Below are positions 8,052 to 63,133 of a DNA stretch of 64,000 nt, in pieces; the first letter of the stretch is position 1; every line of letters begins with the position of its first letter. Below the pieces are notes generated by a model. That model was not told the origin of the DNA. It saw only the letters and a program-made list of their open reading frames with translations, and made no database searches. The translations under genes and the position numbers were made by a program. This stretch comes from an uncultured Clostridia bacterium (GTDB lineage Bacteria > Bacillota > Clostridia > Oscillospirales > Acutalibacteraceae), in the NCBI GenBank assembly GCA_904420015.1, contig CAJFTS010000012.1, positions 1-64,000 on the forward strand, read 5' to 3'.

Positions 8052-9791
<1,740 letters not shown>

Positions 9792-9819
9792 CGCCGTTGA
9801 AATTCAACGCTTTAAAGTG

Positions 9820-10092
9820 TTAATCTATTCTTTTCAATATAATTCTCTGCGTTTTTTCCTCTAAACTCTCGCTTGCGTTTTTGTCGAAACAAGTGCTTAC
9901 AGTATATACAGTACCGCCAATCTCCGTTTCAAAATTGATGGGGTAGGGATATTGGGTCTTGCGAAACCAGTTCATGCGCTCAGCCTTCGTCATAGCGGCA
10001 AGTATATCCGTTATTTCTTCAATAGCGGCGTGAATTTCTATGCCGTCATCAACGGCGTTTCCGTATTCGTCAAGATAAATCACATCTGTCAT
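9820..10092 (-). CDS. Small transposon-encoded protein of unknown function
   Basis: 90-aa ORF overlapping the end of the mob gene by 4 nt. Confidence 0.6.
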   Translation of the reverse strand: MTDVIYLDEYGNAVDDGIEIHAAIEEITDILAAMTKAERMNWFRKTQYPYPINFETEIGGTVYTVSTCFDKNASESLEEKTQRIILKRID

Positions 10093-11354
10093 CGTTCAAA
10101 GCTCTCCTTTTTCTTAGATTTTGGTTTTCGTGCCGGTATTTGCAGTTCCCACGGGGAAAGCTTCAGTTCCTTTTCGGGCTGTTTATGAAAAATGCTCTTT
10201 TCCTGCTCAGGTGCGGTTTTGCAGAGGGATTTCAGGATACCGTCAATGAAGTCCTTGACCTTTTTGGGCGCAGCCTTTAATGCTTCCAAATACGGCTTGC
10301 ATTTTTCCTTTAATTCTGTGAGTTCAGCTTTCAGGCTTTTCACCTTATCCGATAACGCCCGATTGGAGCTTTCCAAAATTTGAACGGTACGCCTGTTCAC
10401 AAGGCACTCTTTGGCTAAGTTAGATAAAGCGGCATAATCGTCTGTACTCATCTGCACCTTGCCCGTCAGCGTTTTCTTACCGATATTGTCAATCGCCTGT
10501 ACGCTCGCCCGAACGGGCAAAACCTTTTCCAAATCTTCATTGGCAACAGCAATCTTGCTCTCAATATCCGCAAGGCGTTCCTTATCCCTCTCAATTTGAT
10601 ATTGCAGACAGCTTTGGTTTTCGGCGGTGCTGCCACGCTCTCCACGGACAAAATCGTTAAATCCCGCTGCCTGCATATGCTCGAAAAATTCGTCCTGTAA
10701 AATACTGTAGGTGGGGACAAGCACCGCTTTCCCTTTTTCGTCATACACAGGCTTTCCCTGCTCGTCCACAGCCTGCGGTGATTTCCATTTTTTTGAGTGG
10801 CTGACCTGCTGAACAACCTCCTTGACCGTACCGACCAATTCGGGATTTTTGCACCGCTTCGTCCATAACACTTGCTTCTCCACCACGGGCAATGCTACAA
10901 TGTGCATATGGTAGTGGTAAATTGGCTCGCCGTACTGCTCGGACAGGGCGAGGTTAACTTCATCGGCGTGCATAACTGCGGAGAGGATATTGTCCTCGCC
11001 GTAAACCTTTACGGCAAACCGATAGGCTTCAGCATAAAACCGTCTGGCAAATTCATAGCCGCCGTGGGTTTCAAAGTAGTCGGTGTTGACATCTAAAATC
11101 ATCTCGTCAAAGATTTTAGCATCCTTTTTCAGACCACGAAGCGACACTTTGCCGTCTGCGACCAGCTTATCAAGGGTTTCATTGTAGGTCATATCGCCGC
11201 AGGATTTGAAATGCACATTCATCGATGTGCGGGACAGGTCAACATTCATATTGCCGTAATGCTCGTTTTTGCGCTCATTGTGGCGTTCATATTTGCCGAT
11301 GGAATCCCTTGTGCGGGTTTCCACCCTTGCCACGCTGAAATTCTGTCTTGACAT
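10089..11354 (-). CDS. MobV/Pre family relaxase (plasmid recombination enzyme)
   Basis: MSRQNFSVARVETRTRDSIGKYERHNERKNEHYGNMNVDLSRT...HMHIVALPV; coiled-coil C-terminus. Confidence 0.92.
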   Translation of the reverse strand: MSRQNFSVARVETRTRDSIGKYERHNERKNEHYGNMNVDLSRTSMNVHFKSCGDMTYNETLDKLVADGKVSLRGLKKDAKIFDEMILDVNTDYFETHGGYEFARRFYAEAYRFAVKVYGEDNILSAVMHADEVNLALSEQYGEPIYHYHMHIVALPVVEKQVLWTKRCKNPELVGTVKEVVQQVSHSKKWKSPQAVDEQGKPVYDEKGKAVLVPTYSILQDEFFEHMQAAGFNDFVRGERGSTAENQSCLQYQIERDKERLADIESKIAVANEDLEKVLPVRASVQAIDNIGKKTLTGKVQMSTDDYAALSNLAKECLVNRRTVQILESSNRALSDKVKSLKAELTELKEKCKPYLEALKAAPKKVKDFIDGILKSLCKTAPEQEKSIFHKQPEKELKLSPWELQIPARKPKSKKKESFER

Positions 11355-11433
11355 TCTTCTCACTTCCTTTCTGTTTCGGATTGTATTTCTTTCTCCCGAT
11401 GGGAGGATATGTTGAGGTTGGCGGTCATTGTTT

Positions 11434-11537
11434 ACGCACCTTTTTCAAAGTGCGTAACCCACTATGACACTTTCAGCCTTACGGCTGCAAAGTGCCAGTG
11501 GGCTCTCCGAGGGGCAAAGGCACTCTTTGAAAAGAGT
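11434..11537. other. Candidate oriT region upstream of mobV: three consecutive inverted repeats
   Basis: ACGCAC/GTGCGT 11434-11455; CCCACTatgaCACTTTcAGCC/GGCTgcAAAGTGccAGTGGG 11458-11502; ACTCTTTgaAAAGAGT 11522-11537. Confidence 0.5.
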
Positions 11538-11823
11538 ACCTCTGCACTCCTCAGAAACCTCAAGCACGCTGTACGCATAAGAACGATGTAACGCATGATA
11601 CGGTCAAAATGGGGATTGCCGTATAAGCCATTCAGACTGATATATATAAGCCTGATAAGCCTTACGGCAAGCGAATTTCAACCCATAAAAGAGTTACATA
11701 CAAGGTATGTGCCGTTCTCTCCGAATGTCGTTCCTGCCCCCAGTTCAGACAGCGTTGCTTTGCTCATATCATCGCAAAATCATATCCCATTCGGACGGTC
11801 ATTCAGTTGTAAACGGCAAAACA

Positions 11824-11899
11824 AAAGCCGTTACACAGACATCAAAAATCGGCGGGAGCTTTGCTCTCGTTTCAAAATGATGTTCTATGTAACGGCTTT
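11824..11899. other. Long imperfect hairpin with an alternative pairing partner (candidate structured leader)
   Basis: AAAGCCGTTACAcAGAcATCA ... TGATGTtCTaTGTAACGGCTTT with internal GGGAGC/GCTCTC stem; third copy GTAAaCGGC at 11809-11817. Confidence 0.5.
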
Positions 11900-12220
11900 G
11901 AAATTCAAAACCATACTGTTTTTTTGCCCCTCCGCCGCTGACAGTACAAAACAGCTTTTGACGGCGGGCAGCGATACTTCCTCTTAGCGTACCGCAGGCG
12001 TTAGGCGACTTATGCCGCAATTCCATTTCAAGAACATTAGATATTCAGTTGTAACTCTCCGAAAAGGGTATTTTATTATATATCACAGGATAGGTGCTTG
12101 TCAATATTTTTTCGGAGGTTTTTGAATATTTCTCGGTGAAGCTGGGAATACTATTTGGTTTGAACAGAAAGAAAGAGCCAATGAAATATGAGTTTCCTCA
12201 CACCTTCATTGACTCTGCGT

Positions 12221-12394
12221 TTATGTGTTTTGTTCTTTTATGATGGTTACGTGAAAATCCTTTGCTTCAATCAAACTTTCCTGCTTGCATTTCGGGCAAT
12301 AGAGAGGAAAGTTTTTTAACTCTGTATCGTACCGTAATTTAATTCGTGTTTTATTTTTGCACACGGGGCATAGCAGCCATTCTGTTTTAAACAT
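12221..12394 (-). CDS. Cysteine-rich KTR domain protein (57 aa, not in ORF track)
   Basis: MFKTEWLLCPVCKNKTRIKLRYDTELKNFPLYCPKCKQESLIEAKDFHVTIIKEQNT*; two CPxC knuckles. Confidence 0.85.
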   Translation of the reverse strand: MFKTEWLLCPVCKNKTRIKLRYDTELKNFPLYCPKCKQESLIEAKDFHVTIIKEQNT

Positions 12395-12409
12395 ATATTC
12401 TCACCTTGT

Positions 12410-13735
12410 TCAATTTAATAAATGTTTTGATGTCTTATAGAAACAATATATTGCTATAAGCATAGTAATTAATTCTGCAAAAATCAGTCCCATCCATATT
12501 CCGTTCAAGCCCCATATAAAAGGCAATACTACAACTAATACACCTGTCAGAACAATACCTCTAAGCATTGCAATAAAAACAGCCAAGACGGATTTCATAA
12601 TGGACTGCAAATAATATATGGCAAGGTGTCCCACTCCTGCAAACAGCATAGAAAAGAAAATAGGGCTTATAATCTTCGGAGACATCTCTAAAATTTCAGG
12701 TGTGGTTTCCATAAAAATCATGCTGATTTCCTTTGGAAAAATCATTCCGATTACAGTAAAGAAAAGGCTTAAAACAACTTCTGTAATAATGGAATAGCGT
12801 AATATATCAAATATTCGTTTACGCATTTTGCCGCCATAATTTGCAGATATGATAGGCTGTGTAGCTTGTCCTACGCCGTCATACATTTTTTGTATTACGG
12901 AAATGCAGGTATATGCAATGCCAAATATTGCAAGCACTGTTTCATTACCATATTTCATAACCTGATTGTTCAGCAAAATAGTAAGGGCGATATATGCGAT
13001 GTCCACCAGCCCTGCACTAATGCCTGCTCCGACTATTCTTTTAAAGCCTCTAAACCAGTGGTTGGGCTTTGTTAATTTTAAATTGCTTTTTCTACTTATA
13101 ATGTAAACTAAAAAAATAACAGTCTGCACCGCATTTCCCAATACAGTAGCGATTGCTGCACCTGCCATACCTGTTCCGATGGTAAAAGGAAAAACAAGGA
13201 GATAATCTCCCAAAACATTTAATAAGCCGCCTATAATTACCGCATACAATACAATATTAGGCGCTCCGTCTGTTCTGACGATGCACCCTAAGTAAATCGA
13301 CAAAAAGAAAATAGGCATACATCCGATTATCCAATTGCCATATTCCTTTACTAAAGGCATCAGTCTGTCATTTGCTCCAAAGAATATGTAAATAGGTTCA
13401 GCAAATATCAGAAAGCAAATCCAAAGAAACAGTGTAAAAAGCAAAATAAGCACTAGGGAAACAGTAAAGCAAGCGGAATACTTTTCCTTATTCCTTTCTC
13501 CTTCAGCCATGCCCATATATACCGAACCGCCTATACCTACAAAAAGACCGAGAAAGGATGTTACCCCAAATAATGGCGTGACAATCGCCAATGCGGCTGC
13601 GCCGTCAGCGCCAACGCCTTGACCGATCGCAACCATATCCACAAGCTGAAAAATAGATATTGCAGCCGCCGATAAAAGCGATGGGATTAGATATTTTCTG
13701 AATAATACGCTGATTTTATCTGTCAATAAATTCAT
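12410..13735 (-). CDS. MATE family efflux transporter
   Basis: Polytopic; FRKYLIPSLLSAAAISIFQLVDMVAIGQGVGADGAAALAIVTPLF typical MATE N-half. Confidence 0.93.
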   Translation of the reverse strand: MNLLTDKISVLFRKYLIPSLLSAAAISIFQLVDMVAIGQGVGADGAAALAIVTPLFGVTSFLGLFVGIGGSVYMGMAEGERNKEKYSACFTVSLVLILLFTLFLWICFLIFAEPIYIFFGANDRLMPLVKEYGNWIIGCMPIFFLSIYLGCIVRTDGAPNIVLYAVIIGGLLNVLGDYLLVFPFTIGTGMAGAAIATVLGNAVQTVIFLVYIISRKSNLKLTKPNHWFRGFKRIVGAGISAGLVDIAYIALTILLNNQVMKYGNETVLAIFGIAYTCISVIQKMYDGVGQATQPIISANYGGKMRKRIFDILRYSIITEVVLSLFFTVIGMIFPKEISMIFMETTPEILEMSPKIISPIFFSMLFAGVGHLAIYYLQSIMKSVLAVFIAMLRGIVLTGVLVVVLPFIWGLNGIWMGLIFAELITMLIAIYCFYKTSKHLLN

Positions 13736-13816
13736 AACAATGCAATACCTCCTTGCTTTTGTTTTTCAGATAGTGTATTATAAAGTGTGATATAATGTGA
13801 GAGTCAAGAGGTATAT

Positions 13817-14614
13817 ATGAAAAAACAAGATTTGATTTCCATTGGAGTTTTATCCAAAATAACGAATGTGCATATTCAATCCTTGAGATATTATGAAAAA
13901 ATTGGAATTCTCAAACCGATTTATATTGATGAACAAAGTAAATATCGCTACTATTCGTTTTCTCAAATCCGTATAGTAGAAGCAATACAGTATTGTGTCG
14001 AGCTCGATATACCTTTAAAAGACTTTTCTACATTTATTTCTGATTCAGAACAGGAAATTGATTATGCATCTCTTATCGCATACGGTCGAAAAATTGCAAA
14101 CGAGAAAATAGAAATGATAAAGGATAAAACAGAGCATTTAGCGTCTATCGAGCAGGATATGCTACATTCAAAAAAATGTGTTGATAATACCATTATCTCA
14201 TGTACTTTACCACAAAAAACATATTACATATCGCCATATAGCGGTACACAAACAGACCCTATGTTTCGTAATGCTGCAATAAAGTTGTTAAATAATGTAC
14301 ATTTAAATGGTTATAAGACAGGGTATGACATCGGTCTGCTTGCCAGATACAAAAATAATTCCATTGAGCAATATGTTTGCACAGATGTTTTAAATTACAA
14401 TCAAGCAGCTTGCCAAGATAAAAACATTTTTTGTATTCCCGCATCTACCTATTACTGTTTAAAACACAAGCAAAGTGGTATTCTTTCAGCTTTAGATATT
14501 TTTAAGGCATACCTTGAAAATGCCAGTGAATATCTCGTAATTGAAACGGATATTTTTACTGAAAAATATTCCTATAATAATCCGAGCTATGAAATTAGAT
14601 GCACTACTCTATAA
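13817..14614 (+). CDS. MerR family transcriptional regulator with C-terminal effector domain
   Basis: SIGVLSKITNVHIQSLRYYEKIGILKPIYIDEQSKYRYYSFSQI; divergent from MATE gene. Confidence 0.92.
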   Translation: MKKQDLISIGVLSKITNVHIQSLRYYEKIGILKPIYIDEQSKYRYYSFSQIRIVEAIQYCVELDIPLKDFSTFISDSEQEIDYASLIAYGRKIANEKIEMIKDKTEHLASIEQDMLHSKKCVDNTIISCTLPQKTYYISPYSGTQTDPMFRNAAIKLLNNVHLNGYKTGYDIGLLARYKNNSIEQYVCTDVLNYNQAACQDKNIFCIPASTYYCLKHKQSGILSALDIFKAYLENASEYLVIETDIFTEKYSYNNPSYEIRCTTL

Positions 14615-14649
14615 ATATTTTTGTGTATTTCGATATTGATTTTCTGATT

Positions 14650-14680
14650 AAAAAACGGCAGAGGGTAAAAACTCTGCCGT
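14650..14680 (-). terminator. Terminator of tnpV
   Basis: acggcagag/ctctgccgt stem with A-tract on + strand (U-tract on the minus transcript). Confidence 0.65.
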
Positions 14681-14687
14681 CTGTCTG

Positions 14688-15062
14688 CTATGCGGAAATG
14701 ATTTCTTTATTCACAATCTCCATCGCACACGCCCATATGTTATTCATTCTTCCAGTCCATTCTAAGGCGTTTTCCGCCTTTAGCTGTTCCGTGATACACT
14801 GTGCCTGCTTCATTTGCTCTATGGGCCGTTCAAAGAGTTTCTGTGCTTGTTCGTTGATATCAGCAAGATAACTGTTTAACTTGCCGCTTGTCAGTAAATT
14901 CATGTACAGAACTTTGTGATTTTGCTTTAAGTATTGTGCGTGCCGCTGTCCCCATATCCCGATGGGCTTTTCATCTTCGAGTGATAAGGTGAGGTTAGGA
15001 ATAAGATACCCGCTTTCATCGTGATAAGTACCACCCATTTCTTCAAAAATCGATTTTGCCAT
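14688..15062 (-). CDS. TnpV-type transposon protein
   Basis: EEMGGTYHDESGYLIPNLTLSLEDEKPIGIWGQRHAQYLKQNHKVLYMNLLTSGKLNSYLADINEQAQ. Confidence 0.85.
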   Translation of the reverse strand: MAKSIFEEMGGTYHDESGYLIPNLTLSLEDEKPIGIWGQRHAQYLKQNHKVLYMNLLTSGKLNSYLADINEQAQKLFERPIEQMKQAQCITEQLKAENALEWTGRMNNIWACAMEIVNKEIISA

Positions 15063-34517: not shown

Positions 34518-34838
34518 ATGTCGGTACAGATCGAACACCAAGACAAGGTGATGACGGCATATCTGGACGGGGAAATCGACCATCATTCCGCCCGCCCCAT
34601 CCGCGAGCAGATCGACGACGAGGCCCAGCAGACCAAGCCCGATACTCTGCTTTTGGATTTCGGCCGGGTTTCCTTTATGGACAGCTCCGGCATCGGCCTG
34701 GTCATGGGGCGGTTTCGTCTCATGAGCGAATTGGGCGGGACACTCAAGGTGGTCAATACGCCGCCCCACATTGCCAAGGTAATGCGGCTGGCGGGAATGG
34801 AACGACTCAATGTACTGGAAAAGGAGAACGGAAGATGA
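34518..34838 (+). CDS. spoIIAA: Anti-sigma F factor antagonist
   Basis: LLLDFGRVSFMDSSGIGLVMGRFRLMSELGG STAS domain with conserved DSSG. Confidence 0.95.
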   Translation: MSVQIEHQDKVMTAYLDGEIDHHSARPIREQIDDEAQQTKPDTLLLDFGRVSFMDSSGIGLVMGRFRLMSELGGTLKVVNTPPHIAKVMRLAGMERLNVLEKENGR

Positions 34839-35275
34839 AACCGGTCAATGAAATGAAGCTGGTGATTCCCAGCCGGTCGGCCAACGAAAGCTACGCCCGC
34901 GTGGCGGTGGCGGCCTTTGCAGCGCAGCTTGATCCGACCATCGAGGAGATCAACGACATCAAGACGGCGGTTTCCGAAGCCGTCACCAACTGCATCGTTC
35001 ATGCCTACCGGGATAAGATCGGCACGGTTTTTCTCACCGTCAAGCTCTTTGAGGAAGGGAAGATCGCCATCAAGATCCGGGATACCGGCTGCGGCATCGA
35101 CGATGTCAAACAAGCGATGGAACCCCTCTTTACCACCGCCGGCGAAGAGCGGGCGGGCCTGGGTTTTGCGGTGATGCAGTCCTTCATGGACAAGCTTACC
35201 GTCCGCTCCAAGCCGGGGAAGGGCACCACCGTTTCTATGGAAAAACGCCTCAAGCCGCGTCCTCTCCGGGTTTGA
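34835..35275 (+). CDS. spoIIAB: Anti-sigma F factor
   Basis: DIKTAVSEAVTNCIVHAYRDKIG...IRDTGCGIDDVKQAMEPLFTT...GLGFAVMQSFMD HATPase. Confidence 0.95.
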   Translation: MKPVNEMKLVIPSRSANESYARVAVAAFAAQLDPTIEEINDIKTAVSEAVTNCIVHAYRDKIGTVFLTVKLFEEGKIAIKIRDTGCGIDDVKQAMEPLFTTAGEERAGLGFAVMQSFMDKLTVRSKPGKGTTVSMEKRLKPRPLRV

Positions 35276-35280
35276 CCGCC

Positions 35281-35946
35281 ATGAGCGGCGAAAAGACCGT
35301 CGACGCCCTTGTTCAGGATAACCTGGGGCTGGTGCATTCCTGCTCCCATCGCTTCAAGGGCCGCGGCATTGATTATGACGACCTGTTCCAGGCGGGCTGC
35401 ATGGGGCTTGTAAAAGCCGCCAAGGCCTTTGAGCCGGAACGGGGCAATTGCTTCTCCACCTATGCGGTGCCGGTGATTTTGGGAGAGATCAAGCGGCTCT
35501 TCCGCGACGGTGGAACGGTCAAGGTGGGACGCACCCTCAAGGAGCTGTCCATCAAGGCGGTGCGCTGCCGCGAGCAGCTTTCCAACCAGCTTGGCCGGGA
35601 CCCCACCATCGGGGAGCTGGCCGAGCGGCTGGGCGTTTCCCCCGAAGAGGCGGCTCAGGCCGTCACCGCATCCCTTCCGCCCGTATCCCTGACCGCGGGG
35701 GAAGAGGAGGGCGGCGGCCAGCTGGATATCCCGGTGGAAGCGCCGGAGGAGAGGATTTCCGATATCATCGCCCTCAAGGAGGTAGTTTCCGCCCTTTCGG
35801 CCCGGGACCGCAAGCTGATCGTCATGCGGTATTTCTCCAGTATGACCCAGTCCCAAACGGCCGAAAAGCTGGGAATGACCCAGGTGCAGGTTTCCCGGCG
35901 GGAAAAGGTGATCTTAAACGAGCTGCGAAAACAGCTCACAGGCTAG
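35281..35946 (+). CDS. sigF: RNA polymerase sporulation sigma factor SigF (possible upstream TTG start at 35272)
   Basis: DDLFQAGCMGLVKAAKAFEPERGNCFSTYAVPVILGEIKRLFRD; third gene of spoIIA-type operon. Confidence 0.94.
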   Translation: MSGEKTVDALVQDNLGLVHSCSHRFKGRGIDYDDLFQAGCMGLVKAAKAFEPERGNCFSTYAVPVILGEIKRLFRDGGTVKVGRTLKELSIKAVRCREQLSNQLGRDPTIGELAERLGVSPEEAAQAVTASLPPVSLTAGEEEGGGQLDIPVEAPEERISDIIALKEVVSALSARDRKLIVMRYFSSMTQSQTAEKLGMTQVQVSRREKVILNELRKQLTG

Positions 35947-43667: not shown

Positions 43668-45587
43668 TTATACGGAGGCGGTTTCCAATACCGCTTCCTC
43701 CATCTTTTTTGCAGAAACATCAAAATCCTGCATGGGAGTTTTCCGAATCGGGACAATCCGCTGCAGGGCATAGGACGCCGCCTTGGGATCCTGTTGGATT
43801 TCCGCCGACAGGGTTTCCAGTTTTTCCATCAGGTTCGCCCCTTCGCCGGGCAAAGGACGGGTAATCATAATCCGGTTGTGGGCCGTGGTAATCAGCCGAT
43901 CCCGTTCATCGTCCAAAATCAGCTCCTCATAAAGCTTTTCGCCCGGACGCAGGCCCACGTACTTTACCATAATGTCGATATCCGGTTTATAGCCCATCAG
44001 ACGAATCATATTTCGGGCCAGATCATCGATCTTGACCGGCTTGCCCATATCCAGCACATAGATGGCGCCGCTTTCCGCCATGCCGCCGGCTTGCAGCACC
44101 AGCTGGGCCGCTTCCGGAATGGTCATAAAGTACCGGGTGATGTCCGGATGGGTGACACAGACCGGGCCGCCCGATTCAATCTGCTTCTTAAACAGGGGTA
44201 CCACGCTGCCGTTGGAACCGAGCACATTGCCGAAGCGCACCGCCATAAACCGGGTTTTGCTGACGGTCGCCATATGCCGGATGATGATCTCCGTCACCCG
44301 CTTGGTGGCGCCCATGATATTGGTGGGATTGACGGCCTTGTCGGTAGACAGGAGGACGAACCGCTTCACCCCGTACTGGTCGGCGCACTGGGCTACATTC
44401 AGGGTACCGAACACGTTGTTCTTAATGGCCTCGGCAGGGCTGTCCTCCATCAAGGGGACATGCTTATGGGCCGCCGCATGAAAAACGATGCTGGGATGGT
44501 ACTCTCTAAAGACTTCCTCCAGCCGCTCCTTATCCCGCACCGAACCGATCAGGATCAGGCTTTTGAGCGCGCTGCCGTACCGGTCCTTGAGCTCGTTTTG
44601 CAGCTCGTAGGCGTTGTTTTCGTATATGTCGAAGATAATCAGCAGTTTCGGGGAGAACCGGGCAATCTGCCGGCAAAGCTCCGAACCGATGGAGCCGCCA
44701 CCGCCGGTGACCAGCACCACATTGTCTTTGAGGTATTCGCTGATGCTCTGCATGTCCAGCTTGACCTCGTCGCGCAGCAGCAGGTCGGAGATGTTCAGCT
44801 CCCGCACCTCGCCGATGGGCCGGGTCCCGTCCTGGATTTCGCTCAAAGGCGGGACCATCTTGATTTTGCATTTGGTTTTGGTACAATTGCTCACAATCCG
44901 CTCATATTGATCGGAGGTGGCGGATGGGATGGCGATATAGATATCGTCGATGGAGAATTGCTCGGCCAGCTCCTGGATACGGTCCACGCCGTAGAGGACC
45001 GATACGCCGCGGATTTGGGTATGATGCTTTTTGATGTCGTCATCCACCACGATGACCGGCGTACCCCGTTTGGGCCCTTCATTGAGCAGGTCATGCACCA
45101 AAGCGGAGCCGGCGTTTCCGCCGCCTACCACCATAATCCGGCGGTAGACCTTATCCTCCACTGCCGCGATGGAGGTCTGTACATGGATGTAGCGGTTGAT
45201 AAAGCGGGAAAACAGAAGAAAGCAAATCGACACGATGGCGCCCATTACATATACCGACAAAGGCAGAAGCAGGTTAAAAATCAACCCGTAGAGGAAATAG
45301 AAAACCATCGCCGTGATACAACCCATAGCGACCCGCCCGATATCCAAAGACGACGCATAGAGCCACAGAACGTGGTAAACCCGGTAGGCGCAGAGACTGA
45401 GCACGGTAAAGATAGACAGAGCCCAGAAGCTTTTAAAATAGTCGGTCAGGAGAGCGGGCGTCAGATCAAAATCATGAAGCAGCAGGTAGGAAAAAACCAC
45501 TGCGACATTGACCATAATCACATCCAGCAGGGCCAAGCCGATTTTAGGAAGCAGAACAGGGAAGAAAAGCTTTTTTTTCTTTGTCAT
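43668..45587 (-). CDS. Membrane-anchored nucleoside-diphosphate-sugar 4,6-dehydratase (CapD/PglF/WbpM-like)
   Basis: N-terminal TM segments; VVLVTGGGGSIGSELCRQIA; LLSTDKAVNPTNIMGATKRVTE (MxxxK variant of YxxxK). Confidence 0.93.
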   Translation of the reverse strand: MTKKKKLFFPVLLPKIGLALLDVIMVNVAVVFSYLLLHDFDLTPALLTDYFKSFWALSIFTVLSLCAYRVYHVLWLYASSLDIGRVAMGCITAMVFYFLYGLIFNLLLPLSVYVMGAIVSICFLLFSRFINRYIHVQTSIAAVEDKVYRRIMVVGGGNAGSALVHDLLNEGPKRGTPVIVVDDDIKKHHTQIRGVSVLYGVDRIQELAEQFSIDDIYIAIPSATSDQYERIVSNCTKTKCKIKMVPPLSEIQDGTRPIGEVRELNISDLLLRDEVKLDMQSISEYLKDNVVLVTGGGGSIGSELCRQIARFSPKLLIIFDIYENNAYELQNELKDRYGSALKSLILIGSVRDKERLEEVFREYHPSIVFHAAAHKHVPLMEDSPAEAIKNNVFGTLNVAQCADQYGVKRFVLLSTDKAVNPTNIMGATKRVTEIIIRHMATVSKTRFMAVRFGNVLGSNGSVVPLFKKQIESGGPVCVTHPDITRYFMTIPEAAQLVLQAGGMAESGAIYVLDMGKPVKIDDLARNMIRLMGYKPDIDIMVKYVGLRPGEKLYEELILDDERDRLITTAHNRIMITRPLPGEGANLMEKLETLSAEIQQDPKAASYALQRIVPIRKTPMQDFDVSAKKMEEAVLETASV

Positions 45588-45723
45588 ATGGATACATCCG
45601 CCTTTTTGACAACTGTCGATATTCTTCATTCTATTCTAACTTTTTTAAATCTGCTTGTCAACGCGGACGATGAAACTTATGAAGAAAAGGGGGAATTCGA
45701 GTGCCTTCTTTCCTTATAAAAAG

Positions 45724-56852: not shown

Positions 56853-57194
56853 CTATAGATAAAAGATCAGGATCCCCACTAAAATCAGGCAGTTGCCCAC
56901 CACCTTGCGCACCGTAAGCTTCTCTTTGAGGAGCCACCAGCTTAAAAGCATCACCAGAATATAGCCCAGCGACTCGATGATCGGCCCGTTCTTGTAATCC
57001 ATCCCGGAAAAGGCAAAAACGGTCAGCAGGGTGGATACCACCATCATTGAATACCCGGCGATCACATGAACATTGAGGTATTCTTTCAGAAAGGAGCCGT
57101 GCTCCTTCTGGGCGCTTTTCTTGAGAAGGATCTGGGAAAAGGAGGCCACCGTCACCGAGGCGAAGAGCAGCAGCCAGGAAAGATTAAGCGTCAT
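56853..57194 (-). CDS. EamA/SMR-like small 4-TM membrane protein, subunit 2 (ArnE/F-like architecture)
   Basis: 113 aa; SQILLKKSAQKE...GPIIESLGYILVMLLSWWLLKEKLTVRKVVGNCLILVGILIFYL. Confidence 0.85.
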   Translation of the reverse strand: MTLNLSWLLLFASVTVASFSQILLKKSAQKEHGSFLKEYLNVHVIAGYSMMVVSTLLTVFAFSGMDYKNGPIIESLGYILVMLLSWWLLKEKLTVRKVVGNCLILVGILIFYL

Positions 57195-57573
57195 CGGAAT
57201 TCACCACCATCGTTCCTGCGATGACCACCGCCACGCCGACGGCGTTTTGGATGGTCACCGATTCCTGAAAAAAGAGCACCGCCCACAGCATGGACCAGAG
57301 CAGCGCGATGGACCGGTTGGCGTAGGCTACCGACAGGTCGAACCGCTTGATGATCTGCTGCCAAAGCAGGGCGTATCCCCCCAAAATGACGATTTCCAGC
57401 CCATAAAACCCGATAAAACCGGGGGTAAGAAACCCGTATCCGGAGGCAAATTTTGCCGCCACCGTCGAAAGGGTGTAGATCATCACCACCAATTGCAGCA
57501 GCAGGATGCTTTTGATGGTAACCTTGGTATGCTTGGACGCCTTCCCTTGTTCCTTTGTATGGATGTGTTTCAT
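57184..57573 (-). CDS. EamA/SMR-like small 4-TM membrane protein, subunit 1 (ArnE/F-like architecture)
   Basis: 129 aa; YTLSTVAAKFASG...LSVAYANRSIALLWSMLWAVLFFQESVTIQNAVGVAVVIAGTMVV; overlaps neighbours. Confidence 0.85.
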   Translation of the reverse strand: MKHIHTKEQGKASKHTKVTIKSILLLQLVVMIYTLSTVAAKFASGYGFLTPGFIGFYGLEIVILGGYALLWQQIIKRFDLSVAYANRSIALLWSMLWAVLFFQESVTIQNAVGVAVVIAGTMVVNSDDA

Positions 57574-58712
57574 AGTTCCAGAAGCCTTTTTATTTGTTCT
57601 CGGTCGTCGCCGGCCAGGATATAGTACCCGTATCGGGTGGAGCTGTCCACAACCCGATGGGTGAAGGGCTCCATCTCGCTTTCCAGGCGGATAAGCTCCG
57701 GGGCCTCCCGCCGGATCCGATCCAGCCGGTCTAAATCCTTTTGGCCGAATACGAACCGGATCGCAGCCGCCTTAAAATGCGGCCCCTTCTGGAGGGAAAG
57801 CGGTATGCCAGCCGCCGCCTCGGTCACCATGCGGACAAAATCGCAGCCGGTGGAAAGGGGGACCAGGTGGGAGCCGATGCAGTCCCCGCCCATCCGTGCG
57901 CCGATTTCAATGAGGCGCACCTGGCCCCGGGGGGTTATCTTCAGCTCGGCATGGGAGGCGCCGCAGGTGACCTTCAGCGCATCAAGCGCCGCGAAAACCG
58001 CGGTGACGATCCGGCTCTGCCATTGGGCAGGGACTTCGGCGGGCTGTATATGCCCGGTTTCGATGAAATGGGGAGCACCGGTGGTATACTTTTTCGTCAG
58101 CGCAAGGAAGGTATGCCTGCCGTCCTGGGAGATGCATTCGCAGCTGAACTCCTCGCCTTCGATATACTCCTCTACGATGGCGCGCTTCTCAAAGGAATTC
58201 GCCCAGGCGTCTGCAAGCGCCTGCATCAGGCCGTCCGGGGAGCACAGCTTGGTAATTCCCCGGCTGCCCGACCGGTCGGTGGGCTTGACGATCACCGGGT
58301 AGGGGAGGGCGGCCGGGTCGAAGGCATCGCCGGGAGAAAGGCGCAGATACCGAGGGGTGGGGATACCGGCCGCCTCCAGGGCCTGCCGCATGGCGTACTT
58401 ATTGGTGGTCAGGATTGTGCAGGCAGAGCTGTTACCAGGCAGGCCCAGCCGCTGGGCCAGAAACTGTACGGTGACGGCGGCCAGGTCGGAGGCAATGGTC
58501 GCTACCGCATCCGGTCGGATACGCCGGCAGACGGCGAGGATTTCCTCCTTTTCGGTGATGCTCACCGGATAGAAATGATCCGCCGTCCTTGCACCTACCG
58601 CCCCTTCCTGCCAGGCGAATACATGGGTCTCATACCCCAGCTTCTTTGCGCTGCGGATGAGCGGGTCCTGAAAGGAGTTGGCGCCGATGATCGCAATCCG
58701 TTTCCTTTTCAT
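57570..58712 (-). CDS. ATP-grasp domain ligase
   Basis: KYAMRQALEAAGIPTPRYL...YPVIVKPTDRSGSRGITKL...IVEEYIEGEEFSCECI...EIGARMGGDCIGSHLV. Confidence 0.9.
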   Translation of the reverse strand: MKRKRIAIIGANSFQDPLIRSAKKLGYETHVFAWQEGAVGARTADHFYPVSITEKEEILAVCRRIRPDAVATIASDLAAVTVQFLAQRLGLPGNSSACTILTTNKYAMRQALEAAGIPTPRYLRLSPGDAFDPAALPYPVIVKPTDRSGSRGITKLCSPDGLMQALADAWANSFEKRAIVEEYIEGEEFSCECISQDGRHTFLALTKKYTTGAPHFIETGHIQPAEVPAQWQSRIVTAVFAALDALKVTCGASHAELKITPRGQVRLIEIGARMGGDCIGSHLVPLSTGCDFVRMVTEAAAGIPLSLQKGPHFKAAAIRFVFGQKDLDRLDRIRREAPELIRLESEMEPFTHRVVDSSTRYGYYILAGDDREQIKRLLEL

Positions 58713-58733
58713 GAAGCTACCGATCCTTTCCCC

Positions 58734-59870
58734 TTACTCGGATACCCGGTAAAAATCCCGGACGGCCTGTACGATATAGGCGAGAGATTCCTCCGAAAGC
58801 TTATAGTACATCGGCAGGCGCACCAGCCGTTCGCTCTCCCGGGTGGTGTACCGGTCCTCGCCGAAGAACCGGCCGAACCGTTTTCCGGCCGGGGCGGTAT
58901 GCAGCGGGATATAATGAAAGACGCACTGAATCCCCCGGCTTTTCATATAGTCGATAAACCGGGTGCGTTCGTCGAGATCCTTGCATTTGATGTAATACAT
59001 ATGGGCGTTGTGCACACAGCCGTCGGGGACCGTCGGCTGCTCGATCAAGCCCCGGTCTTGCAAAGGGCGCAGAGCTTCGTGGTAGTAATTCCACGAAGCA
59101 AGCCGGTCGGCGTTGATCTGGTCGGCCATCAGCAGCTGGGCCCAAAGGTAGGCGGCGTTTAGGTCGCTGGGAAGATAGGAGGAGCCAAAGTCCACCCAGG
59201 TATATTTGTCCACCTGGCCGCGGAAGAATTTGCTGCGGTTGGTGCCCTTTTCGCGGATGATTTCCGCCTTCTCCGCATATACCGGGTCCTGGAACAGGAT
59301 GGCGCCCCCTTCGCCCATGCTGTAGTTTTTCGTTTCATGAAAGCTGTAGCAGCCGAAGTCTCCCATTGTTCCCAGCGCCCTTCCTTTGTAGGAGGACATG
59401 ACCCCTTGGGCCGCATCCTCCACCACCTTCAGGCCATGCTTTTTCGCCACCGCCAGGATGGCGTCCATTTCGCAGGAAACCCCCGCATAGTGGACCGGGA
59501 CGATTGCCTTGGTGCGCTCGGTCACCGCCGCCTCTAAGAGCGCTTCATTGAGGTTCATGGTGTCCGGGCGGATGTCCACAAACACCAGCTTCGCTCCGCG
59601 CATCACAAAGGCGTCCGCCGTGGAAACAAAGGTGTAGGAGGGCAGGAGAACCTCATCCCCTTCCTCGATGCCGCACAGAAGGGCGGCCATCTCCAGCGCG
59701 TGGGTGCAGGAGGTGGTCAGCAGCGCATTGGAAACCGTGAACCGGTCCTTGAGCCATGCGGTGCACTTCTTCGTAAATTCACCGTCGCCGCAGATTTTGT
59801 GCTGGGCGATGGCCTGCTGGATATAGCCGGTTTCGTTGCCGGTGGAGGGAGGAATATTAAAATCAATCAT
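58734..59870 (-). CDS. wecE: dTDP-4-amino-4,6-dideoxygalactose transaminase (WecE/RffA type, DegT/DnrJ/EryC1 family)
   Basis: ICGDGEFTKKCTAWL; LPSYTFVSTADAFVMRGAKLVFVDIRPDTMNLNEALLEAAVT; VEDAAQGVMSSYKGRALGTMGDFGCYSFHETKNY PLP-Lys; close resemblance to WecE along its length. Confidence 0.93.
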   Translation of the reverse strand: MIDFNIPPSTGNETGYIQQAIAQHKICGDGEFTKKCTAWLKDRFTVSNALLTTSCTHALEMAALLCGIEEGDEVLLPSYTFVSTADAFVMRGAKLVFVDIRPDTMNLNEALLEAAVTERTKAIVPVHYAGVSCEMDAILAVAKKHGLKVVEDAAQGVMSSYKGRALGTMGDFGCYSFHETKNYSMGEGGAILFQDPVYAEKAEIIREKGTNRSKFFRGQVDKYTWVDFGSSYLPSDLNAAYLWAQLLMADQINADRLASWNYYHEALRPLQDRGLIEQPTVPDGCVHNAHMYYIKCKDLDERTRFIDYMKSRGIQCVFHYIPLHTAPAGKRFGRFFGEDRYTTRESERLVRLPMYYKLSEESLAYIVQAVRDFYRVSE

Positions 59871-59897
59871 AGTGAAACGTTCACGCCTCCGATTGGT

Positions 59898-61244
59898 TTA
59901 TTTGACATAGGCTGGATACAACACCAGAGCGTAGGACAGCACGCTTAAGGCAACCACGCCTCCTCCGATGCAGATTTGCACGAACACCTGAAACCTCCGG
60001 CTGATAAACAGGCGCTCGATCAGGGTCTTAAGACCCATCGTTACTAGAAACATAAAGGGCACCAGCATGGGAAGCAGATACCGTCCCTGGGGCTGGAAAT
60101 CACTGAAATAAGAGTAATAAACGCTCAAAACCACCGGGATGAAGGCGGCGAGGACCATGACCGCGAAAAAAAGTATCCGCCGGTGTTCCTCCCGGCTGCG
60201 GTTTCGTACCCGGGTAAAGCCGTTGATGAGCTTGACGGCCACGCCGGCAAAGCCCAGCAGAAAGAGGGTGCTGTAAAGAACATACATCCAGGAGGGAAGG
60301 GGATAGGCCATATACCCAAAGAAGCCGATAAAACTTTTGAAGGAGGTCTTCAGCCAGAGCATGTTTATAAGCATATACGCAAGGGAAACGCCTTGGCTTT
60401 GGGGAGTAATTCGGTTGGAAGGCTTGACGTAGTCGAGCCCATACGTCTGTGCATATTCATCCGAGGTGCGCATCCCCAGAAAATCGCCGTTGTAAAGCAC
60501 GGCGTTGCGGATAAACCACCAGCCCGCCAGCAGAATCACAACCCCTACAATCAGCAGGCCGTATCGGAGCATGCGCTTATAGTCAACCTTCTTTTCCTCA
60601 AAGAAAAAGAAGGAAAGGACAAAGAGCAGCACACTGCAAAGAAGGAATCCGTAAGCGTTATAGTAGGACAGGGAGCAGACCGCCGCCGCCGCCCCAAGAA
60701 AGAGGCAGCTTTTTCGGTCCCATCGGCTTTGCAGGCCGAGGATCCAGGCATAGACGAGCATGGCCGAGGAAAAGAGTGCCAGTGCGTCGTTGTTGACGTA
60801 GGAAGAGATAAAGACAAACTGGGGAAGAAGGGCCGCCAGCAGGACGAAAAGATAGCGATACCCGCCTCGAAAGAGCTTTCGGCCGATCCGGATGCAAAAA
60901 TAAGCGGTTCCCACACAGCATAGGATGCTGACCATCCGCGCCGCCATCAACAGGACAAAGGGATCGGTGGAAAATAGGCTTGCCACCTTCATAAACCCGG
61001 CGCTTACGATATAGGATAAAATAGGAGTAAAGGCATAGGAGATGCCCCAGATGGGGTTGCGGATGGCGGGGTCGCCGCCATGGGGCAGATAACCGTGCTG
61101 ATAAATAAATTCCGGTATTTGGTAGCGCATATATTCGTCCGGCGCGGAATTGTAAGGCTGCGTAACCGCCCAGAGAAAATAAAAACCGAACAATAGCACT
61201 AGGATTCCACAGGTCAGAAGAGAATCGCGTTTGACTGCTTTCAT
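59898..61244 (-). CDS. DUF2142-like polytopic membrane protein, probable GT-C-type glycosyltransferase
   Basis: About 10 TM; YNSAPDEYMRYQIPEFIYQHGYLP first-loop acidic motif; SYVNNDALA. Confidence 0.75.
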   Translation of the reverse strand: MKAVKRDSLLTCGILVLLFGFYFLWAVTQPYNSAPDEYMRYQIPEFIYQHGYLPHGGDPAIRNPIWGISYAFTPILSYIVSAGFMKVASLFSTDPFVLLMAARMVSILCCVGTAYFCIRIGRKLFRGGYRYLFVLLAALLPQFVFISSYVNNDALALFSSAMLVYAWILGLQSRWDRKSCLFLGAAAAVCSLSYYNAYGFLLCSVLLFVLSFFFFEEKKVDYKRMLRYGLLIVGVVILLAGWWFIRNAVLYNGDFLGMRTSDEYAQTYGLDYVKPSNRITPQSQGVSLAYMLINMLWLKTSFKSFIGFFGYMAYPLPSWMYVLYSTLFLLGFAGVAVKLINGFTRVRNRSREEHRRILFFAVMVLAAFIPVVLSVYYSYFSDFQPQGRYLLPMLVPFMFLVTMGLKTLIERLFISRRFQVFVQICIGGGVVALSVLSYALVLYPAYVK

Positions 61245-61463
61245 TGATAACGCTCCATGTTATAAAATTGAAATAGTTTCCTCTTTATTCGTCCGATAGT
61301 ATACCACTGTACAAAGGCAATCTCAATCGAAGACGGCATAAATTTAATGATTTGTTACAATAATGAGGATGATCGCCGGGGCGGGAATGCATACGAAAAG
61401 GGTGAAAAAATTAGCCCGCTTCCCGCCCTTTTTGCTGGGAACCGGGGCGCTTTTGCGTCTTCC

Positions 61464-61491
61464 TTGCTTTTTTTATGAGGCGTGCTATAAT
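61464..61491 (+). promoter_or_regulatory. Promoter for GT2 gene TTGCTT-N16-TATAAT
   Basis: TTGCTT 61464-61469, TATAAT 61486-61491. Confidence 0.45.
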
Positions 61492-61543
61492 AATGGGCGT
61501 CGAAAAAGAACGAAGAAATTATTGAAAGGAACGGACGCGCTTT

Positions 61544-62500
61544 ATGGATAAGATTTCCATTGTGGTGCCGGTCTACTTCAGTGAGGACAACCTTTTGCCC
61601 CTTTATGCGGATTTAAAGGAAAAGGTCCTCGGAAGGCTTCCGGCCGGCTGGGATTATGAGCTGGTGCTGGTGGACGACGGCTCAAAGGACCGATCCTACC
61701 AGGTGATGTGCGACCTTAAGAGGATTGATCCGAGGATCCGGCTCGTCAAGCTGGCGCGCAATTTCGGCGAGCATGAGGCTACGCTGGCGGGCCTGACCGC
61801 CTGCACCGGTACCTGCGCGGTGCGAAAGTCCGCCGACCTGCAGGAGCCGAGCGAGATGATCCTTCAGATGCTCGAAAAATACCGAGGTGGCGCACCGGTG
61901 GTGATTGCCGCGCGCAGGGGGCGGGACGAACCGGCCATGCAGAAGCTGCTGTCCAACACTTACTGCCTGCTGATGCGCAAGTTCGCCCTGAAGAATATGC
62001 CCAAGGGAGGCTTTGACAGCTATCTAATCGGCCGCGAGGTCATCGATGTGCTGGTGAAGATGCAGGAGAAAAATACCCCTTTGACCGAACAGATCCTTTG
62101 GTGCGGGTTTCCGATGGAGCAAGTTTCTTACATCCGGCCCAAGCGGGTCATTGGGAAATCCAGATGGACGCTGTCCAAAAAGGTCAAGATGGCGTTGGAT
62201 TCCTTTTTGGGCTTTTCCTATTTTCCCGTCCGGTTCATTTCCGGGGTAGGCTTTGTCTCCTTCCTCGGCTCGTGTATCTGGCTGTTGGTGCTTCTTATCC
62301 AGAAGCTGGCGGGGAAAATTACGGTGGACGGATTTACTACGGTGGCGGCCCTGGTGCTGTTGAGCTTCGGTATCGTGATGCTGTCTATCGGCATTCTGGG
62401 GGAATATATCTGGCGGATGTTTGACGCTACCCGAAACCGTCCGCCCTATATCGTGGAGCGCCAGGATGAGGACAAAACGGATGAAACCCGCAAGGGATAA
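61544..62500 (+). CDS. Glycosyltransferase family 2, polyprenyl-phosphate sugar transferase type (ArnC/GtrB/DPM1-like)
   Basis: ISIVVPVYFSEDNLLPLYADL; ELVLVDDGSKDRSYQVM; two C-terminal TM helices before LGEYIWRMFDATRNRPPYIV. Confidence 0.92.
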   Translation: MDKISIVVPVYFSEDNLLPLYADLKEKVLGRLPAGWDYELVLVDDGSKDRSYQVMCDLKRIDPRIRLVKLARNFGEHEATLAGLTACTGTCAVRKSADLQEPSEMILQMLEKYRGGAPVVIAARRGRDEPAMQKLLSNTYCLLMRKFALKNMPKGGFDSYLIGREVIDVLVKMQEKNTPLTEQILWCGFPMEQVSYIRPKRVIGKSRWTLSKKVKMALDSFLGFSYFPVRFISGVGFVSFLGSCIWLLVLLIQKLAGKITVDGFTTVAALVLLSFGIVMLSIGILGEYIWRMFDATRNRPPYIVERQDEDKTDETRKG

Positions 62501-62554: not shown

Positions 62555-63133
62555 GTGGACTATCGCGAGCAGATTGCAGCCTTCCGGCCGGCGGATGAAC
62601 CGGAGAAAAGGGTGCGGGAAAGGGTGATCCGGCTGATCGAACAAAAGGGGGACGCCCTTCTGGAACGGACTTGTGGGTATCATTTTACCGGTTCGGCTTT
62701 GCTTTTAAACCCCTCGGGGAGCAAAACCCTTCTCCTTTTTCACAAGCAGTTTCAATCCTGGACTTATCCGGGCGGACATGCGGACGGGGACAGGGATCTG
62801 CTGGCCGTTGCTCTGCGGGAGGCGAGGGAGGAAACCGGACTTTCGGCGCTGACCCCGGTGAAGGAGGAAATCCTCGCCTTGGACCTGCTGGGAGTACCCG
62901 GCCATAGGAAAAACGGCAGCGCCGTCGAGGCGCATACCCATATCAGTGCATCCTTTGTGCTGCAGGCGCGGGAGGGGGAGCCGCTGCTCCAAAATCCCGC
63001 GGAATCCCAGGGGCTGCGCTGGGTACCGGTGGATCAGATGGAAAAATGGTGCAGAGAGCCCCATATGCTGGCGGTATTCCGAAAGCTGCTGGCCCGGGCG
63101 GGGGCATTTGGAAGAAGGGAGGAGAAGCGATGA
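62555..63133 (+). CDS. NUDIX hydrolase
   Basis: YPGGHADGDRDLLAVALREAREETGL Nudix-box-like; GTG start. Confidence 0.88.
   Translation: MDYREQIAAFRPADEPEKRVRERVIRLIEQKGDALLERTCGYHFTGSALLLNPSGSKTLLLFHKQFQSWTYPGGHADGDRDLLAVALREAREETGLSALTPVKEEILALDLLGVPGHRKNGSAVEAHTHISASFVLQAREGEPLLQNPAESQGLRWVPVDQMEKWCREPHMLAVFRKLLARAGAFGRREEKR

Follow-up and report, generated by a model that had tools for sequence, protein, structure and literature searches.

We analyzed six neighboring genes of an uncultured gut Clostridia bacterium (Acutalibacteraceae; assembly GCA_904420015.1, contig CAJFTS010000012.1), which lie between positions 56,853 and 62,500 of the 64,000-nucleotide stretch studied here (positions 1 to 64,000 of the contig, hereafter the window). 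They encode two small membrane proteins, an ATP-grasp ligase, a sugar aminotransferase and two glycosyltransferases, and had been described in an original prediction, made from the sequence, as an Arn-like pathway for a lipid-linked amino sugar. We consider it quite likely that the locus serves to make an amino sugar, which is probably aminoacylated, loaded onto a lipid, flipped and attached to a surface acceptor. The genes and the transcription signals around them are as follows.

56853-57194, minus strand: EamA2, small SMR/EamA protein of 113 amino acids, predicted N-out; probably one subunit of a flippase for a lipid-linked sugar
57184-57573, minus strand: EamA1, small SMR/EamA protein of 129 amino acids, predicted N-in; partner subunit of EamA2, the two genes being coupled through their 11-nt overlap
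57570-58712, minus strand: ATP-grasp carboxylate-amine ligase, 380 amino acids (Pfam ATP-grasp_4)
58734-59870, minus strand: WecE-type DegT aminotransferase, 378 amino acids (TIGR02379 and PRK11706)
59898-61244, minus strand: GT-C glycosyltransferase of the DUF2142 family, 448 amino acids (Pfam DUF2142/PMT_2)
61544-62500, plus strand: divergent polyprenyl-phosphate GT2 of the GtrB/PgfS/ArnC class, 318 amino acids (Pfam Glycos_transf_2)
61326-61298, minus strand: promoter-like site upstream of the GT-C gene and the five-gene unit, TTGAGA-17-TATACT with TG before the -10 element (consensus scan only)
56795-56762, minus strand: terminator-like hairpin with a 15-bp stem just past EamA2 (consensus scan only)

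All six open reading frames (ORFs) were found where the original prediction had placed them, and the spacings it gave were exact: gaps of 27 nt between the GT-C and aminotransferase genes and 21 nt between the aminotransferase and ATP-grasp genes, followed by overlaps of 4 nt (ATP-grasp/EamA1) and 11 nt (EamA1/EamA2). With a promoter-like site upstream and a terminator-like hairpin after EamA2, the minus-strand genes appear to form an operon of five genes.

The set is conserved, as the original prediction requires. In two congeneric species all six genes occur in the same order and orientation with 74-91% identity, and the core of the set recurs in many genomes; a chance juxtaposition of the six genes was rejected on the basis of this synteny and recurrence. 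A NUDIX hydrolase gene (62555-63133, plus strand) adjoins the GT2 gene and is kept by both congeners, at about 57% identity versus 74-91% for the six genes. Both congeners searched have the ATP-grasp gene; among 60 genomes, including that of the window, its distribution was patchy, with eight matches. Three of the eight were weak and located in other neighborhoods, which still looked like sugar loci, two of them beside DegT-type aminotransferases.

To extend the comparison, 80 loci selected by their ATP-grasp gene were collected from named genomes, including Blautia, Christensenella, Mediterraneibacter, Hespellia, Longicatena, Massilimicrobiota and many metagenome-assembled genomes of gut Clostridia. 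Within 8 kb of the ATP-grasp gene, WecE was present in 68 loci, both EamA genes in 55 and GT2 in 60. When only the 48 loci that extend 7.5 kb or more in each direction were counted, the numbers were 45 (WecE), 36 (EamA pair) and 39 (GT2). The genes for the sugar donor were constant across loci, and the polytopic GT-C-type partner varied (DUF2142, YfhO, DUF6056, PMT_2-like and unnamed families), a pattern expected if the acceptor alone differs. Accessory genes varied too, and comprised SDR, a second DegT, a second ATP-grasp protein with an L-amino-acid-ligase C-terminal domain, acyltransferase 3 and rmlA/rmlC; RmlA and RmlC family members were found in 27 and 18 of the 80 loci, respectively. 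The locus is thus a real, conserved system that is widespread in gut Clostridia.

The aminotransferase proved to be WecE-like, as originally proposed. It exceeded both curated cut-offs (TIGR02379, 632 bits against 435; PRK11706, 627 bits against 375) and scored far higher with WecE models than with those of ArnB, PseC or DesI. Its best solved relative is the WecE-type structure 4piw (PDB, E = 2e-167), and the lysine for pyridoxal phosphate (PLP) is K181, from the motif HETKN. We propose that this enzyme converts dTDP-4-keto-6-deoxyglucose to dTDP-4-amino-4,6-dideoxyhexose, with the galacto isomer Fuc4N as the likeliest product and Qui4N as the other candidate. A source of dTDP-sugars, including a dTDP-glucose 4,6-dehydratase, exists in the same genome: a single RmlB scored above its curated cut-off (471 bits against 365), and the ORFs beside it read as RmlA, RmlD and RmlC, giving an rmlABCD cluster away from the locus (L089 7139-10663). 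Within the window, a membrane-bound PglF/CapD-like nucleotide-sugar 4,6-dehydratase (43668-45629, minus strand), with a PseB-like domain below cut-off, is encoded about 11 kb from the locus and could represent a second amino-sugar route.

No curated family fits the ATP-grasp protein exactly, and its scores fell below every curated amino-acid-ligase cut-off. Its AlphaFold model (pLDDT 94) is nearest in predicted fold to L-amino-acid ligases: the best PDB match was the L-amino-acid ligase 3vot, followed by 4dim, RizA and BacD. A profile search gave the same group (4dim, 3vot and BacD), and the segment GARMGGD aligns to GARIGGS of 3vot. The genome of the window has a single copy at useful similarity. 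In Blautia-type loci, the ATP-grasp protein carries a fused PLP fold-II enzyme related to D-cysteate sulfo-lyase and ACC-deaminase (e.g., L019:10004-12112) and is followed by a second ATP-grasp protein with an L-amino-acid-ligase C-terminal domain (LAL_C2). Of the evidence available, this fused PLP enzyme hints most clearly at an amino acid as a substrate of the ligase. Given these fusions and the nearest folds, we favor amino-acylation of the amino sugar, in which the ligase would link an amino acid (or another carboxylate) to the 4-amino sugar as an amide. The acceptor amine is probably a sugar, because the genomic partner of the ligase is a sugar aminotransferase.

The GT2 aligns over its full length, including the C-terminal transmembrane (TM) part, with GtrB (5ekp) and ArnC (9bhc). 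Its top score was obtained with PgfS, at 187 bits and below the cut-off of 500. The metal motif is unusual, reading SAD in place of DXD (61826-61849, residues 95-102), with the second Asp and the next Gln retained. SAD or AAD was found in all eight GT2s of the window type (the window and seven close relatives), and a DXD form in 57 of the 58 other GT2s of such loci. This motif may mark a different use of donor or metal and an unusual subclass of polyprenyl-phosphate GT2s.

EamA1 and EamA2 differ in sequence, as judged by family alignments. EamA2 scored above the Pfam EamA cut-off of 28.2 bits (37.6 bits) and EamA1 below it (24.9 bits); the top NCBIfam match of EamA1 was ArnE (31.7 bits, below the cut-off of 92). 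The original prediction that the two are similar to ArnE and ArnF was supported in that opposite topologies are predicted and both resemble ArnE. With loop boundaries set by hand, the bias of Lys and Arg among the loops was positive (N-in) in 40 of 40 EamA1 proteins and negative (N-out) in 43 of 43 EamA2 proteins, which predicts the opposite membrane orientations that an antiparallel heterodimer needs. ArnE was the commonest curated match of both subunits (38/40 for EamA1 and 32/43 for EamA2 at E 0.01), far below its cut-off. Alignment with hhalign to Escherichia coli ArnE gave probabilities of 95.6 for EamA1 and 92 for EamA2, and to E. coli ArnF 44% and 24%, respectively. Neither subunit keeps the TM1 glutamate of EmrE or has any acidic residue at that position, in agreement with the report that lipid-transporting SMR proteins often replace this glutamate (PMC9574504). 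An invariant glutamine, Q21, lies in TM1 of EamA2 and corresponds in the alignments to a Gln in both ArnE and ArnF. In profile searches, no solved structure matched EamA1, and EamA2 matched EmrE weakly.

Since the ATP-grasp-seeded sample is biased by its seed gene, the test was repeated from the EamA1 end. The EamA1 profile matched 16 of 291 genomes of the class, and EamA2 was adjacent in all 15 other than that of the window. A WecE gene (488 bits or more) was nearby in 8 of these 15 and the ATP-grasp gene in 3; most of the remaining loci, read by eye, had the pair beside GT2, large polytopic, DegT or sugar-nucleotide ORFs. The link to glycan loci was thereby upheld, and the homologs did not show the lack of such a link that would speak against a role in glycosylation. 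The pair probably represents a broader family of glycolipid flippases that is not confined to this sugar. In three loci without WecE (L133, L134 and L137, with the pair at about 7.4-8.7 kb), it lies beside LicD, cytidylyltransferase and MBOAT-like ORFs, as read by eye, and there possibly flips other lipid-linked substrates.

The GT-C protein has the predicted fold and, as anticipated, an acidic motif in an extracellular loop. Foldseek comparison of its AlphaFold model (pLDDT 93) returned archaeal and eukaryotic oligosaccharyltransferases (OST/AglB), Pmt4, ALG9 and ArnT, all of which are enzymes using lipid-phosphate donors. The motif, PDE at residues 35-37, is located in the first extracellular loop, between the first helix and the next, and is conserved in all 14 homolog rows that cover it. 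Comparison of the GT-C family with E. coli ArnT by hhalign gave a probability of 3% only, yet the PDE motifs line up. In the wall polysaccharide loci of lactococci and streptococci, DUF2142 proteins have been discussed as possible polymerases or transferases (PMC12599335, PMC9746298). The GT-C enzyme of the window probably has a wall polymer or else a surface protein as its acceptor.

Taken together, these data suggest the following pathway. RmlA and RmlB, whose genes are located elsewhere in the genome, would make dTDP-4-keto-6-deoxyglucose, which the WecE-type enzyme would transaminate at C4. The ATP-grasp ligase would then join a carboxylate, most likely that of an amino acid, to the 4-amino group, presumably before lipid loading. 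The GT2 would transfer the sugar from dTDP to undecaprenyl phosphate, and an antiparallel EamA1/EamA2 heterodimer may flip the lipid-linked sugar. Finally, the DUF2142 GT-C enzyme would attach the sugar to an acceptor on the outer side of the membrane.

Several observations weigh against this pathway. The first Asp of the DXD motif is missing in all window-type GT2s, and their catalysis is thus unproven. Two Christensenella species and some other organisms lack the EamA pair in cis; in ten such genomes, the pair was found elsewhere in four and was not found in six. In addition, the pair is found at loci that lack WecE or the ATP-grasp gene, and is therefore not specific to this sugar. Moreover, the ATP-grasp fold is common to ligases using carboxylates other than amino acids, and formate-dependent PurT, as well as PurK, is also close. 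As a separate observation, LrgA/LrgB genes directly follow the ATP-grasp gene in Christensenella hongkongensis (L009:11258-12335), where the EamA pair is absent in cis and present elsewhere. LrgA/LrgB was considered as a replacement flippase in this organism and rejected, a coincidental neighborhood being likelier since the EamA pair sits elsewhere in the genome.

The closeness of PurT and PurK bears most directly on an alternative in which the transmembrane glycosylation is the same and the ATP-grasp enzyme adds another carboxylate (hydroxy acid, formyl-like or carbamoyl) or makes a peptide or acyl donor for a polymer. The failure of the enzyme to reach any curated amino-acid-ligase cut-off and the accessory sets that differ by locus (SDR, second DegT, second ATP-grasp, acyltransferase) would fit this alternative. 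However, its best fold and leading profile matches are L-amino-acid ligases (3vot, BacD and RizA), and the Blautia-type loci have both the fused PLP amino-acid enzyme and the LAL_C2 neighbor; we therefore regard this alternative as rather unlikely. A different doubt concerns the last step. Lactococcal DUF2142 proteins have been proposed as the polymerase WpsI or the side-chain transferase WpsJ (PMC12599335), and the window protein might similarly be a polymerase or oligosaccharide transferase of a wall polysaccharide, with the amino sugar placed in the repeat unit instead of a single side chain. Such a polysaccharide locus appears improbable here, because no phosphoglycosyltransferase, further glycosyltransferases or Wzx were found beside the genes, the sole GT2 is of the polyprenyl-monophosphate class, and the candidate flippase is a small pair and not Wzx.

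It is also conceivable that the EamA pair is an SMR-type drug or metabolite exporter that lies beside sugar genes by chance. The window EamA2 does score slightly higher with Qac SMR models than with ArnF, and some EamA pairs are not beside WecE. Against this stand the intact pair in every other EamA1-seeded match, about half of them by WecE, and the location of nearly all other pairs beside GT2, polytopic membrane or sugar-nucleotide genes. The predominance of ArnE among the matches of both subunits and the lack of an acidic residue in TM1 point the same way. We therefore disfavor a drug exporter and consider this explanation very improbable. The reading that we retain is the transfer of a probably aminoacylated amino sugar, by way of a lipid carrier and the EamA pair, to a surface acceptor.

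Other features of the window were also noted. A spoIIAB gene (SpoIIAB, 195.5 bits against a cut-off of 135) together with a SigF/SigG-type sigma gene below cut-off (34814-35946) supports a sporulating lineage. A stretch of low GC content (36-46%) at 8052-15000 is probably a mobile element: it encodes a large serine recombinase and a relaxase that resembles MobV (below cut-off), together with a MATE exporter and a MerR-like regulator.

For Blautia, Christensenella and other common gut Clostridia, the locus suggests an amino-sugar system whose flippase would be an SMR-type pair. If this is correct, it would provide a new surface modification of abundant commensals, with a bearing on charge, tolerance to host peptides, phage adsorption and immune recognition, as well as a candidate enzyme that aminoacylates a sugar amine. 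The literature searched contained no description of the six-gene set, which is weak evidence of novelty given that most subscription papers were outside the search; the locus is apparently a variant of known glycosylation logic that is so far undescribed. A more far-reaching proposal, which we offer only tentatively and hold to be somewhat doubtful, is an undescribed class of Gram-positive surface glycosylation, widespread in gut Clostridia, in which an ATP-grasp ligase joins a dTDP-4-amino-4,6-dideoxyhexose to an amino acid, a GT2 (in the window of an unusual AxD subclass) loads it onto undecaprenyl phosphate, an SMR heterodimer flips it, and interchangeable GT-Cs serve different surface acceptors. 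Such a class might make the surface zwitterionic or cationic, in parallel to D-alanylation.

Among known systems, the Arn pathway of Enterobacteria (ArnBCADTEF, Ara4N on lipid A) shares with this locus a DegT aminotransferase, an ArnC-class GT2, a pair of small SMR-type proteins (here a putative flippase) and a GT-C enzyme, all in one locus, and to this extent the Arn-like logic of the original prediction held. The locus differs from Arn in its WecE/dTDP route (Arn uses UDP-Ara4N), its extra ATP-grasp ligase and its DUF2142 GT-C. A plain Arn pathway was rejected, because all Arn equivalog cut-offs were missed (ArnB, 179 bits against 631; ArnC, 129 against 529; ArnE, 31.7 against 92; ArnF, 27.1 against 99) and no ORF for ArnA (formyltransferase/UDP-GlcA decarboxylase) or ArnD was present among or next to the six genes. 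Lipid A is an unlikely acceptor, since the host is of a sporulating Gram-positive lineage.

The multi-component transmembrane glycosylation systems of Gram-positive bacteria, such as CsbB/GtcA/YfhO, GtlA/GtcA/GtlB, CsdAB/CflA and GacI/GacK/GacL (PMC8035078), are built from a polyprenyl-phosphate GT2 with C-terminal TM helices, a flippase and a GT-C enzyme. Two of their features, a GT2 with C-terminal TM segments and a GT-C fold with an extracellular acidic motif, were found here, and the SMR-like pair of opposite predicted topology is a candidate for the flippase. However, GtrA and Wzx are the only flippase types in a 2021 review of these systems, and Gal, Glc and GlcNAc the only sugars added (PMC8035078), whereas an SMR heterodimer is predicted for this locus, which additionally carries its own sugar aminotransferase and ATP-grasp ligase in the operon. 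According to a 2022 review, lipid-transporting SMR pairs are found mainly in Proteobacteria (PMC9574504).

With the Pgf system of Streptococcus mutans (PgfS/M1/E/M2), the locus shares a GT2 whose best match is PgfS, and YfhO-type proteins of some homologous loci weakly match PgfM1/M2. WecE, the ATP-grasp protein and the EamA pair are not known to be part of the Pgf operon. The enterobacterial common antigen pathway has an aminotransferase of the same family, whose cut-off the window protein exceeds; the locus differs in that no other gene of that pathway lies beside WecE and in having an ATP-grasp ligase instead of the N-acetyltransferase WecD. Finally, the ATP-grasp protein is similar in predicted fold and profile to the L-amino-acid ligases BL00235 (3vot), BacD and RizA, and is set apart from them by its partnership with a sugar aminotransferase.

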